Shown here piece after piece: positions 9,091-63,399 of a stretch of 64,000 bases of DNA. The notes under the pieces were generated by a model that had not been told where the DNA came from, searched no databases, and saw only the letters and a list, made by a program, of their open reading frames with translations. The first letter of the stretch is position 1. Every line of letters starts with the position of its first letter. The DNA comes from Ianthella basta (lineage: Eukaryota; Porifera; Demospongiae; Verongiida; Ianthellidae), in assembly GCA_964019415.1 (NCBI GenBank), contig OZ025887.1:323501-387500 (forward strand). The letters run 5' to 3'. Both the position numbers and the translations under genes were made by a program.

Positions 9091-21088
<11,998 letters not shown>

Positions 21089-31104: not shown

Positions 31105-33640
31105 AAAACAATGGGCCAGTATGTCATGTGACCACATGTGATTGGCTCAACAGTAGCTTCACTGTATTGACCCAATTGCATGTGATTATGCAATCCTCAA
31201 TGTCATGAGACCACATGAGATTGGGTGAACAGTGGTTTAACTGTATTGGCCCAATCCCATGTGGTTATGCAATCCTCAATGTCATGTGACCACATGGGAT
31301 TGGGTCAACAGTAGCTTCACTGTATTGACCCAATCCCATGTGGTTATGCATTCTTCAATGTCATGAGATCACATGGGATTGGGTCAACAGTAGCTTGACT
31401 GTATTGACCCAATCCCATGTGGTTATGCAATCCTCAATGTCATGTGACCACATGGAATTGGCTCAACAGCAGCTTAACTGCACTGACCCAATCCCATGTG
31501 GTTATGCAATCCTCAATGTCATGTGACCACATGGGATTGGGTCAACAGTAGCTTGACTGTATTGACCCAATCCCATGTGGTTATGCAATCCTCAATGTCA
31601 TGTGACCACATGGGATTGGCTCAACAGCAGCTTAACTGCACTGACCCAATCCCATGTGGTTATGCAATACTCACTGTCATGTGACCACATGGGATTGGGT
31701 CAACAGTAGCTTGACTGTATTGACCCAATCCCATGTGGTTATACAATCCTCAATGTCATGTGACCACATGGGATTGGGTCAACAGTAGCTTGACTGTATT
31801 GACCCAATCCCATGTGGTTATGCAATCCTCAATGTCATGTGACCACATGGGATTGGGTCAACAGCAGCTTAACTGCACTGACCCAATCCCATCAGGGGCG
31901 GATCCAGGATTTTGTAAAGGGGGGGTCACAAAGTAATTTTTCAAATTTCCCACATCTGAGCGGCCATCTTTATTGCAATAAAATAACGCTTGTGACGTCA
32001 TAAAAATGGCCGCCAGCGGGTGGCATTGAAGTAAAAGCCAATTTTGGCATATTGGACTACTGTACAATCACATCGGGCAGGTTTATGGTAAAAATGATTG
32101 TGTCATAGTTGATTCATAGCCCTTTCTATGCCATAAATACTGCTTACTGCCATTTTCTGCTTTGAAAAAATCTTAGGGTCTAGGCTAAGGGGGGGTCACA
32201 TGACCCCCTGGACCCCCCCTAAATCCGCCCATGCCCATGTGGTTATGCAATACTCACTGTCATGTGACCACATGGGATTAGGTCAATACAGTGAAGGTAC
32301 TGTTGACCCAATCCCATGTGGTCGCATGACATTGAGGTTATGCAATCCTCAATGTCATGTGACCACATGAGATTGGGTCGACAGTAGCTTCACTGTATTG
32401 ACCCAATCCCATGTGGTTATGCAATCCTCAATGTCATGTGACCACATGGGATTGGGTCAACAGTAGCTTGACTGTATTGACCCAATCCCATGTGGTTATG
32501 CAATCCTCAATGTCATGTGACCACATGGGATTGGGTCAACAGTAGCTTCACTGTATTGACCCAATCCCATGTGGTTATGCAATCCTCAATGTCATGTGAC
32601 CACATGGGATTGGCTCAACAGCAGCTTAACTGCACTAACCCAATCCCATGTGGTTATGCAATACTCAATGTCATGTGACCACATGGGATTAGGTCAATAC
32701 AGTGAAGGTACTGTTGACCCAATCCCATGTGGTCGCATGACATTGAGGTTATGCAATCCTCAATGTCATGTGACCACATGAGATTGGGTCAACAGTAGCT
32801 TGACTGTATTGACCCAATCCCATGTGGTTATACAATCCTCAATGTCATGTGACCACATGGGATTGGGTCAACAGTAGCTTGACTGTATTGACCCAATCCC
32901 ATGTGGTTATGCAATCCTCAATGTCATGTGACCACATGGGATTGGGTCAACAGTAGCTTGACTGTATTGACCCAATCCCATGTGGTTATGCATTCTTCAA
33001 TGTCATGAGATCACATGGGATTGGGTCAACAGTAGCTTGACTATATTGACCCAATCCCATGTGGTTATGCAATCCACGATGTCATGTGACCACATGGGAT
33101 TGGGTCAACAGTAGCTTGACTGTATTGACCCAATCCCATGTGGTTATGCAATCCTCAATGTCATGTGACCACATGGGATTGGCTCAACAGCAGCTTAACT
33201 GCACTGACCCAATCCCATGTGGTTATGCAATCCTCAATGTCATGTGACCACATGGGATTGGCTCAACAGCAGCTTAACTGCACTGACCCAATCCCATGTG
33301 GTTATGCAATACTCACTGTCATGTGACCACATGGGATTGGGTCAATACAGTGAAGGTACTGTTGACCCAATCCCATGTGGTCGCATGACATTGAGGTTAT
33401 GCAATCCTCAATGTCATGTGACCACATGAGATTGGGTCGACAGTAGCTTCACTGTATTGACCCAATCCCATGTGGTTATGCAATCCTCAATGTCATGTGA
33501 CCACATGGGATTGGGTCAACAGTAGCTTGACTGTATTGACCCAATCCCATGTGGTTATGCAATCCTCAATGTCATGTGACCACATGGGATTGGGTGAACA
33601 GTGGTTTCACTGCATTCACCCAATCCCATGTGGTGTTGTT
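31105..33640. repeat. 79-bp palindromic satellite array
   Basis: About 2.5 kb of head-to-tail 79-base units (for example starts at 33059, 33138, 33217). Each unit holds two inverted-repeat pairs: CCCAATCCCATGTGGT with ACCACATGGGATTGGG, and TTGGGTCAA with TTGACCCAA. Three segments (near 32279, 32690, 33335) carry the inner spacer in reverse orientation. A 341-bp MITE is inserted at 31893. Confidence 0.95.
31893..32233. mobile_element. 341-bp hAT-like MITE inside the satellite array
   Basis: The left end CAGGGGCGGATCCAGG and the right end (reverse complement CATGGGCGGATTTAGG) form imperfect TIRs. The flanking CCCAT at 31888-31892 and 32234-32238 is a 5-bp target duplication. The subterminal GGGGGGGTCAC is also inverted. 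It has no coding capacity. Confidence 0.75.
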
Positions 33641-60944: not shown

Positions 60945-63399
60945 GCACACACACTCATCCACAAGCAAACACAGATGAGGCTTACACTTTGGTCAAACTT
61001 CACAGTCCACGGCAGTGTAGAGCTACGTGAAAAGTTGAGTCCACCGAGCAGTGTGCTCCACATGAGGCGTCCATCAAAGCACAGCTCAGCAATGTGGCTG
61101 TCCTGCTCCCCCGGGTAGAGAGCTCTCAGCTGGACAGCAAACACACACACAGAAACCAAGTGACACACAGACGGACAGACAGACTGCAGCAGCCCGACAT
61201 ACATGACACAAGACATTAAACTCTAACAATAAGAGAGAGTGTGCAGATAAGACTATGAATTGGCACACACTTTATACATGTGTGGCTTAGGGGATGGTCT
61301 AGCAGACTAGACAATTATCACCATCACGGACACAAGTGCACCGTCACCTAGGCAACACATCCAGCACCTTCTCACCTCAGTGAGGTTGGCTTGGCACCAA
61401 GACTCCACAGTCTGGTTGAAGTGGGTCCACTCATCGGCACTGGAGGATTGTAGCTCTGGCAGCTTGCTTGATATGACTTTGAATAGCCCCATGGCCTACA
61501 GCAAGTGGGAGAGAAGGAGAGGGGAAGAGGAGGACTTGGGGTGAGTACGTTTGTGAAGGAAGAGCCAGTGAATTCACACAGCACAGTGACACACACACTA
61601 GTATAGGGGTAGGGAGAGTCAACCTGACAACACTCACATAATATGTCCCATTGACCAGTGGTTGGAAAGTGCCGTTGATGCCGCATGTGCCAAAGTCACA
61701 GCTGACTTTGGGGAAGAGTTTATCCACTTCCATTGCACACCGTGCGCTGTCTGATGTCCCATTGAAGAACACAAGATCGCCTTCAGTGAGGTCTACAGTA
61801 TTCAAGAGATGCACACTCACCACACACACAACAGTGTCACCACACAACAGGACGTCACTACATGACACAGTGTCAACACACAACATGACGTCACTACATG
61901 ACACAGTGACACGACATGTTACAACACAACAAAATGTCAAATCACAAGAATAGCACTCCATGCTGTATACAGATGCACACACACACACAAAGAGAGACAA
62001 AGACAACAAGCTCATACTTGATGGAGGCTGGGTTATGGCACAAGGATGGCTCCAGATATCTGCGACAGTCTTGTTCATCTGAAACCCCTGCGGCAGACAA
62101 GGGTTCTCCACTGTACGATTGTCCTCCCGCACATCCTGGGCCAGGTTGGCTAGGAGGCGGAGCTCCATCTGGTCCCGCCCATAGCAGAGGTAGCTGTGGG
62201 CGTACAGGGTGTGGCTGTGGTTGAAAAGGGTGACTGTCTCGTTTGAGCTGACAGACTCAAAGGCCAACTCAAGAGATGCACCACCAAAGTCAATTGAGCC
62301 TACTGTCTGGCCAGGTGCCAGCAACTGAGCAAAAGGAGACAATAGTATGCACAGGACGGCATTGTGATGTACTTCCTCCTACTTAGCACCATGCCACCTT
62401 ACTGTCTGATTGAGAAAGTTGACTGAAGTCCATGAACTGCTGGCTTCCTCCATCCCAGGGATGATTGCAGTATTAGTTGCAAAGAACTTCTTGGCAATCA
62501 ATGCTTTGTGGACCTCATTCATAATTTCAGTAGCAGCAGTTTTGTTTCTCTCCCTGAAGGCAGGACAGAGGCAGGTCAGAAGGAGCGAAGGTGTGTGTCA
62601 GATGAAGTCGAGGAGAGTGCATGAGCTGGTAACAATACTGGTGATGCAGCAGCAGTGATGTCACAAGCTGTTAGCCCAGCCAGAGCTAGCAACCAGCACC
62701 ACAGCCACATGACTAGTTGTCCTAGCAACCAGCACCACAGCCACATGACTAGTTGCCCTAGCAACCAGCACCACAGCCACGTGACTAGTTGCCCTAGCAA
62801 CCAGCACCACAGCCACATGACTAGTTGCCCTAGCAACCAGCACCACAGCCACATGACTAGTTGCCCTAGCAACCAACACCACAGCCACATGACTAGTTGC
62901 CCTAGCAACCAGCACCACAGCCACATGACTAGTTGCCCTAGCAACCAGCACCACAGCCACATGGCTAGTTGCCAGTAATCAATGCTGATTACTGGCAACA
63001 TCACACGAATTGGTCTACCCTGGTCCCCTGTTCACACACACACTCACTCAAGTAGTCTCATGCCTGCCGTGGCTCCAAGATACAGCCAAGTTCTGTTCTT
63101 TACACTTCCAACAATAGCGTCCGCTCTTGTCACCAGTGCACTGATGGACTCTGCTGCCGCGGACGCATTGCCAGCATACTGGTTGATCCCCACTGCAGCA
63201 AGCGGGGCGACACACAACACAACACAACACACCGTACACCTTGTGCTTTATACCTGCGCACTCGTGTTCACCCACCATCAGTTCCTTTGATTCTCGCATA
63301 TGCCGAAATTTTTCCTGTGTTGCTGTGTTCTTTCAATCCGTCCCATGCAAATATCCACAGGGTGCTATGCGAAGACCCAGCATCAATCACAACGCCGTA
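60568..63399 (-). CDS. Ecto-nucleoside triphosphate diphosphohydrolase (CD39 type), 5' end missing
   Basis: Hydrolyses extracellular NTPs and NDPs. Exons in order: VIDAGSSHSTLWIFAW (ACR1, 63399 to about 63285; the usual last T is S), NRTWLYLGATAGMRLLE (ACR2, about 63060), ASSSWTSVNFLNQTV (ACR3, about 62420), SIDFGGASLELAFESVS (ACR4, about 62280; usually GGASTQ), AHSYLCYGRDQMELR, CDFGTCGINGTFQPLVNGTY (about 61660), LFKVISSKLPELQ, ELCFDGRLMWSTLLGGLNF (about 61050), and ISGVPLGWPMGYMTL. A C-terminal transmembrane helix (FLDLILSVVLLSIVAVILAL) and a short tail end at 60568. The C-terminal anchor and HSYLCYGRDQ indicate the ENTPD1/2/3/8 group. The N-terminal anchor exon was not found; it may lie beyond a LINE at 63.5 kb. 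Confidence 0.85.
60861..60943. repeat. (CA)n microsatellite in the NTPDase gene
   Basis: Pure CA run of about 41 units between two NTPDase exons. Confidence 0.95.
62690..62967. repeat. 36-bp minisatellite carrying X-box palindromes
   Basis: Seven to eight copies of a 36-base unit containing AGTTGCCCTAGCAACC followed by AGCACCACAGCCACATGACT. It lies in an NTPDase intron. X-box cores start at 62716 (one base variant), 62752, 62788, 62824, 62860, 62896 and 62932. Confidence 0.95.
62968..62999. repeat. Perfect 14-bp inverted repeat
   Basis: GTTGCCAGTAATCA, loop ATGC, TGATTACTGGCAAC. It directly ends the X-box minisatellite. Confidence 0.9.

Follow-up and report, generated by a model that had tools for sequence, protein, structure and literature searches.

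RFX-type X-boxes at the seams of an intronic minisatellite in the sponge Ianthella basta and their likely origin by tandem duplication

One intron of an NTPDase gene in the sponge Ianthella basta carries seven RFX-type sites at regular spacing, and the locus raises the question of whether these sites form a regulatory element or are an incidental product of the repeat that holds them. We analysed the 64,000-nucleotide stretch of DNA that contains the array (hereafter the window, in whose coordinates positions are given) together with the genome assembly. We consider it likely that the array is a young intronic minisatellite whose X-boxes arose at the seams between its units and which has no selected role. 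The array itself, its edges within the motif, a search of the genome that found no second copy, the enclosing intron, the RFX domains encoded in the genome and the excess of X-boxes are observations; the order of events, RFX binding and neutrality are inferred.

The minisatellite lies at 62686-62973, where Tandem Repeats Finder reported a period of 36, 8.0 copies, 97% match and a score of 548, and a unit-by-unit listing resolved it into eight units of CTAGCAACCAGCACCACAGCCACATGACTAGTTGCC (no strand assigned). With a head-to-tail unit of 36 bp repeated 8.0 times, it falls within the roughly 10-100 bp that define this repeat class. There are four substitutions in the 288 bases of the eight units, one in the motif and three in the spacer, counts too few for a comparison of the two. 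The 14-mer to which the sequence-only reading drew attention straddles the boundary between adjacent units. On the plus strand, the first seam (62716-62729) reads GTTGTCCTAGCAAC, one base off the X-box consensus, and the remaining six carry exact copies of GTTGCCCTAGCAAC, which fits that consensus, at 62752-62765, 62788-62801, 62824-62837, 62860-62873, 62896-62909 and 62932-62945. The seven copies, their spacing of exactly 36 bases, the single T for C and the limits of 62716-62945 were all as first described; the array itself extends past these limits by 30 bp on the left and 28 bp on the right, with an unpaired half-site at each end. Across the whole window, GTTGCCNNNGCAAC with up to two mismatches gave 58 matches against a shuffle mean of 22.2 (sd 5.5), a count that 0 of 100 shuffles reached; 14 of these 58 are the array itself, counted on both strands.

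The sequence specificity of RFX proteins is established. The published X-box has the form GTNRCC N0-3 RGYAAC, with GTTRCY as the monomer site (PMC10530576), and the array resembles the X-boxes of ciliary promoters in fitting this form, with a 2-bp spacer. Six of the seven copies match the consensus, and the seventh (GTTGTC, with T for C) misses one fixed base. The 14-mer had been called a complete X-box palindrome, which holds for the consensus fit of six copies but not for the symmetry: its 5-bp arms, GTTGC and GCAAC, enclose CCTA, and its half-sites, GTTGCC and GTTGCT, differ. Two loci in the genome pass the cut-off that Pfam sets for the RFX DNA-binding domain PF02257 (88.4 and 39.8 bits), the better of which is near human RFX1 (PDB 1dp7; E 3.2e-28 over residues 1-61). 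The proposed link to RFX is supported by the consensus fit and by these encoded domains, and the array motif, judged from its letters, should be bindable by RFX.

The two ends of the array bear on how the sites came to be there. Both edges fall inside the motif and keep a half-site, CAGAG/CTAGCAAC on the left and GTTGCC/AGTAATCA on the right, where the slash marks the edge. A half-site scan placed the lone left half-site, AGCAAC (GTTGCT on the minus strand), at 62688-62693 and the lone right one, GTTGCC on the plus strand, at 62968-62973; the nearest inverted partner of the latter, at 62994-62999, is 20 bp off in an adjoining palindrome and beyond X-box spacing. Each flank agreed with the unit at 5 of 24 bases (the left with the unit end, the right with the unit start), against a mean of 6.1 and a 95th percentile of 10 at random window positions. 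When the flanks were shifted by up to 3 bases, the best matches were 8 (left) and 10 (right), neither above the 95th percentile. Because the flanks do not match the unit, the array ends abruptly within an X-box on both sides. Since the edges cut the motif and the flanks are unlike the unit, the seven X-boxes coincide with the seven seams of eight units, and to judge from the sequence they probably arose through the duplication and not by amplification of a pre-existing X-box. An amplification of a palindrome by chance, as raised before, came close but had the relation inverted, as the edges suggest that amplification itself made the palindrome, at the seams.

In the simplest history, the ancestral copy was single and lacked an X-box, its two inverted half-sites being separated by about 36 bp. 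Replication slippage or unequal exchange would have produced a head-to-tail duplication of a unique 36-bp segment, starting with the half-site CTAGCAAC and ending with GTTGCC. Where the end of the segment met its start, at the first seam, GTTGCC/CTAGCAAC would then have formed an X-box, and more copying would have given eight units with seven seams. Alternatively, an older array may have been trimmed of its outer sites at both ends, with the same appearance. In a random register an edge would fall within the 14-bp motif of the 36-bp unit about 13 times in 36 (by arithmetic), a caveat on the junction origin.

The host intron, on the minus strand at 62554-63047, is 494 nt long. Its donor reads GA/GTGAGTGTG (GTGAGT) and its acceptor CTGCCTTCAG/GGAGAG (CAG), and the joined frame remains open (..YLGATAGMRLLE/ERNKTAATEIMNEV..). 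On the same strand, the exon before the array (..YLGATAGMRLLE) lies in an open reading frame at 63048-63247, within which its 5' splice limit is not fixed, with a GDA1_CD39 match at 63047-63247 (E 5.9e-6), and an upstream NTPDase exon (YGVVIDAGSSHSTLW..) lies in a frame at 63271-63399 (GDA1_CD39, E 3.3e-6). The exon after the array (ERNKTAATEIMNEV..) occupies the part at 62382-62553 of a frame that is open across the splice; the full open frame (62382-62597) had no Pfam hit of its own. The frame at 61434-62378, with the next NTPDase exon or exons (..GSIDFGGASLELAFES..), matched GDA1_CD39 (E 8e-14) as well as the structures of NTPDase2 (PDB 3cj1, E 1.2e-20) and NTPDase1. These domain and structure matches, with the output of Tandem Repeats Finder, confirmed that a 36-bp repeat sits within an NTPDase gene. 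A coding array was ruled out by the supported intron, though three frames across the array are open. Beyond the window, a frame without a Pfam hit was read by eye as the likely first exon, which includes a membrane segment and has its ATG at about 64916 in window coordinates; this start codon would place the array about 2.1 kb into the gene. Past the 5' end of the gene, an SNF2 helicase domain is encoded in a plus-strand frame at 66941-67351. Retroelement-like frames (L026, L027) were seen by eye in the 5' part of the NTPDase gene, between the array and the first exon (63479 to about 64600), and past the neighbouring SNF2 gene (about 72579-75330), with a PHD-like finger, an endonuclease and a reverse transcriptase among their contents as read by eye.

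The last unit's half-site also begins a perfect palindrome, GTTGCCAGTAATCA-ATGC-TGATTACTGGCAAC, with 14-bp arms at 62968-62999 (no strand assigned). Folded as DNA it reached -15.3 kcal/mol (z -8.8), and exact genomic matches to its arm were limited to its own two arms; it looks like a template-switch product. A single unit folded at -4.5 kcal/mol (z -1.8, with 11 of 200 shuffles as good) and two units at z -2.5, and the single-unit hairpin was dismissed as weak. It may be asked whether the array works in the transcript, where the inverted half-sites and the terminal palindrome would fold the intron and affect splicing. Array and palindrome cover 314 of the intron's 494 nt, the terminal palindrome folds as given above (by DNA rather than RNA parameters), and CeRep25B, a palindromic intronic minisatellite, is enriched beside alternate exons of C. 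elegans genes with multiple splicing decisions (PMC4039745). The unit folds weakly, however, and the splice sites look ordinary, and we regard a function in the transcript as improbable. The array is like CeRep25B in being a short, repeated, near-palindromic intronic unit, whereas CeRep25B occurs in clusters along two chromosomes (PMC4039745) and the array was found at a single locus in its genome.

X-boxes are in excess across the genome. The loose X-box pattern had 6,311 matches in both orientations against 695-1,140 expected from dinucleotides, and the reversed loose pattern had 974, near its expectation of 992-1,355. For the strict pattern GTTGCCNNRGYAAC we counted 2,264 oriented matches against 128-148 expected, or 15-18 times what composition predicts (Markov/dinucleotide), while its reversed control gave 21 against 40-56 expected. 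Because the reversed control contains CpG, which is depleted here (observed/expected 0.33 in the window), we preferred the Markov expectation over the comparison of 2,264 with 21. With GTTGCCNNGGCAAC, present at 478 places, counted twice among the oriented matches, about 1,786 distinct strict sites are left (2,264 less 478). The exact 14-mer of the array was found 23 times, 6 of them in the array and 17 dispersed, against 2.2-2.5 expected. The strict X-box excess is real and its sources are mixed. We compared the 22 strict sites that come first on contig C1, each with 200 bases on either side, with other X-box loci (37 loci in all): 9 shared flanks with another locus, 2 belonged to one locus at a distance of 87 bp, and the remaining 11 had no match; the centre of the site was AT in 15 of the 22 and is CT in the array. 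Eight of the 17 dispersed exact 14-mers were inspected, at L001-L008. Two of these loci, L006 and L007, show no difference in the 400 compared bases and are members of a repeat family; by eye, L005 and L008 are presumably coding exons of CAD and of an ATG16L-type WD40 protein, respectively, and L028/L029 presumably an Ig-domain exon.

This abundance bears on two further explanations. The sequence-only reading had proposed that the array could be a decoy, a sponge that titrates RFX. Seven tandem sites at one place would suit such a role; because they amount to only 7 of about 1,786 distinct strict sites, or 0.4%, a decoy is very unlikely, barely worth entertaining, and we rejected it. The array could also have been seeded by a transposable or hairpin element carrying X-box palindromes. 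The genome contains repeat families whose sites are of the GTTGCCATGGCAAC or GTTGCCATGGTAAC type (L006, L007, L011, L039, L040, L046 and L049; and L037, L038 and L048), and because they carry X-box palindromes, mobile elements may spread RFX-type sites; a perfect palindrome, moreover, adjoins the array. Against this, 421 bases comprising the array and its flanks, and a 109-base piece of the array, match nowhere else in genome searches that skip very common words, and the palindrome arm has no other exact copy. A transposon origin was set aside on the single locus, with no dispersed copies found, and we give it little chance.

The reading of the locus as an RFX-dependent enhancer, put forward at the outset, has more on its side. 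RFX dimers on six or seven seams would raise transcription of the NTPDase gene or of a neighbour in ciliated cells. The motif fits the consensus, RFX DNA-binding domains are encoded, strict X-boxes exceed expectation, and we found no second tandem run of more than two strict sites at periods of 19-48; in the reporter of a PU.1 repeat enhancer, few motifs were already mildly activating (PMC13373173). Yet when MORC3 was absent, accessibility and binding were confined to about 50 of the roughly 1,000 human PU.1 clusters that have more than 15 motifs (PMC13373173). The 36-bp spacing corresponds to 3.43 turns of 10.5 bp, in agreement with the earlier estimate of about 3.4. Because of this spacing, adjacent seam sites are rotated by about 154 degrees and out of phase, so helical phasing of the seam sites was ruled out. 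NTPDase is not known to be a ciliary gene. The array also lies well inside it, the gene beyond its 5' end encodes the SNF2 helicase domain, and the X-box matches elsewhere are partly repeat copies (the 9 of 22 on contig C1), with some others in coding exons (by eye). Because of the base rate of PU.1 clusters, a host gene with no known ciliary role and the lack of phasing, we consider an RFX-dependent enhancer unlikely, although weak enhancer activity is possible by analogy with such repeats. Somewhat less probable again is that an RFX-responsive enhancer was born here from X-box-free sequence, with each copy adding one X-box, as a copy-number-tuned switch of the ecto-nucleotidase.

In C. elegans, one X-box or several are often found 100-250 bp ahead of the coding sequence of a ciliary gene (PMC2873420). 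The array departs from this arrangement, with sites in tandem within an intron of a gene for an ecto-nucleotidase, about 2.1 kb past the presumed start codon. IFT20, the sole ciliary gene that we checked, had no X-box with a spacing of 0-3 in any of four loci (L057-L060), which comprised a match and 1.5 kb of flank in either direction, nor any with a spacing of 2 even when one mismatch was allowed. Because these loci are without an X-box, which also speaks against the enhancer, we do not claim X-boxes as marks of ciliary promoters in this host. The IFT20 matches fell into two sets of equal score 8.9 kb apart (contig C23, 5756728-5766208), a tandem or an assembly duplicate.

Could repeat turnover alone have produced such an array? 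The window holds 23 non-overlapping minisatellites with a period of 19-48 and at least three copies, against 2 in 40 kb elsewhere, a sample of four 10-kb stretches. Scaled to 209 Mb, these densities give about 10,000 to 75,000 arrays, on a base of 104 kb (114 kb with L027) and with a sevenfold spread between window and sample. At the rate set by composition, with the mean unit taken as 33 bp, 0.24 strict-X-box arrays would be expected from the sample (95% 0.03-0.88) and 1.8 from the window rate; at the genome's real X-box density the figures are 3.0 (95% 0.36-10.7) and 21. One was seen. Arrays in which a strict X-box is made at the seam by chance would number 0.1-0.7, and because of this figure the chance model is stretched slightly, not broken, if the seam origin is right. 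By this rough estimate there is no clear sign that X-box arrays are favoured, and the array as it stands is a plausible product of repeat turnover in a minisatellite-rich genome; a selected element could also be the only tandem strict run. Neutrality is probably the right reading on base rates. In naked DNA, RFX proteins of the host would probably bind the six seams that fit the consensus, and the array would have no selected role and act at most as a weak, incidental RFX-responsive element, often closed in chromatin. Among 16 consensus units of the window, inverted repeats as long as or longer than the array's own perfect 5-bp arms were present in the minisatellites at 12622 (8-bp arms) and 31121 (6-bp arms). 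The latter, with a 79-bp unit, runs for 2.5 kb (31121-33634) and shows long inverted repeats by eye, TTGACCCAATCCCATGTGG and its complement.

A close likeness is to the tandem-repeat enhancers repressed by MORC3, which share with the array an intronic minisatellite and a homotypic motif cluster, and the 36-bp unit is within their reported range of 20-192 bp (PMC13373173). Among them, IFNB1-MRE is an intronic minisatellite with 45 PU.1 sites and a strong, repressed enhancer in human monocytes (PMC13373173). With seven sites in eight units, the array belongs among minisatellites with a homotypic motif cluster of this type, and the proposal that such clusters grow by repeat instability (PMC13373173) extends the likeness. 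The MRE, however, has 45 PU.1 sites and tested enhancer activity, whereas the array has seven RFX-type candidate sites, and repression by MORC3 needs more than 15 motifs (PMC13373173). The array's motif sits at the unit seam. RFX has 0 occurrences in the main text of that paper, and no X-box minisatellite was found in the titles and abstract openings of the RFX papers retrieved. The array probably has an ordinary cause, an intronic repeat with X-boxes at its seams by accident, and its seam origin is the new point. The array suggests that tandem duplication can turn two half-sites lying apart into a dimeric transcription-factor site at each seam, so that a homotypic cluster can arise without an ancestral site. 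Were it bound, it would show cleanly how a single mutational step can give rise to a regulatory element; on present evidence, it cautions against calling motif clusters in minisatellites enhancers.

Clustered X-boxes occur elsewhere in the genome. Pairs of GTTGCN4GCAAC with a gap of 5-34 were found at 8 places genome-wide, 5 in the array and 3 isolated, and pairs of GTTGCCNNRGYAAC gave 12 oriented matches, 5 in the array and the other 7 from six pairs elsewhere; the reversed-motif control gave zero pairs in either genome-wide search. With the two strict patterns, no place except the array was found to have more than two strict X-boxes in tandem at periods of 19-48. Because only these patterns and gaps of 5-34 were covered, clusters at other periods or with looser motifs could be missed. 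Two of the six outside GTTGCCNNRGYAAC pairs (L020 and L021) are 91% alike over the compared 400 bases. L020 has exact loose-pattern X-boxes at 1416, 1501 and 1530, three within 130 bp, and a one-mismatch site at 1333 makes four within 211 bp; L021 has exact sites at 1334, 1501 and 1530 and two one-mismatch sites. Since these clusters exist, X-box clusters as such are not unique to the array, although within our searches the tandem form is. Both clusters are unevenly spaced within about 210 bp (about 1333-1543 in L020 and 1334-1543 in L021), and we consider them better candidates than the array for real RFX clusters. A gene that we take by eye to encode a CTR9-like TPR protein lies beside L020, and at L017 a third, degenerate site was seen by eye next to the strict pair.
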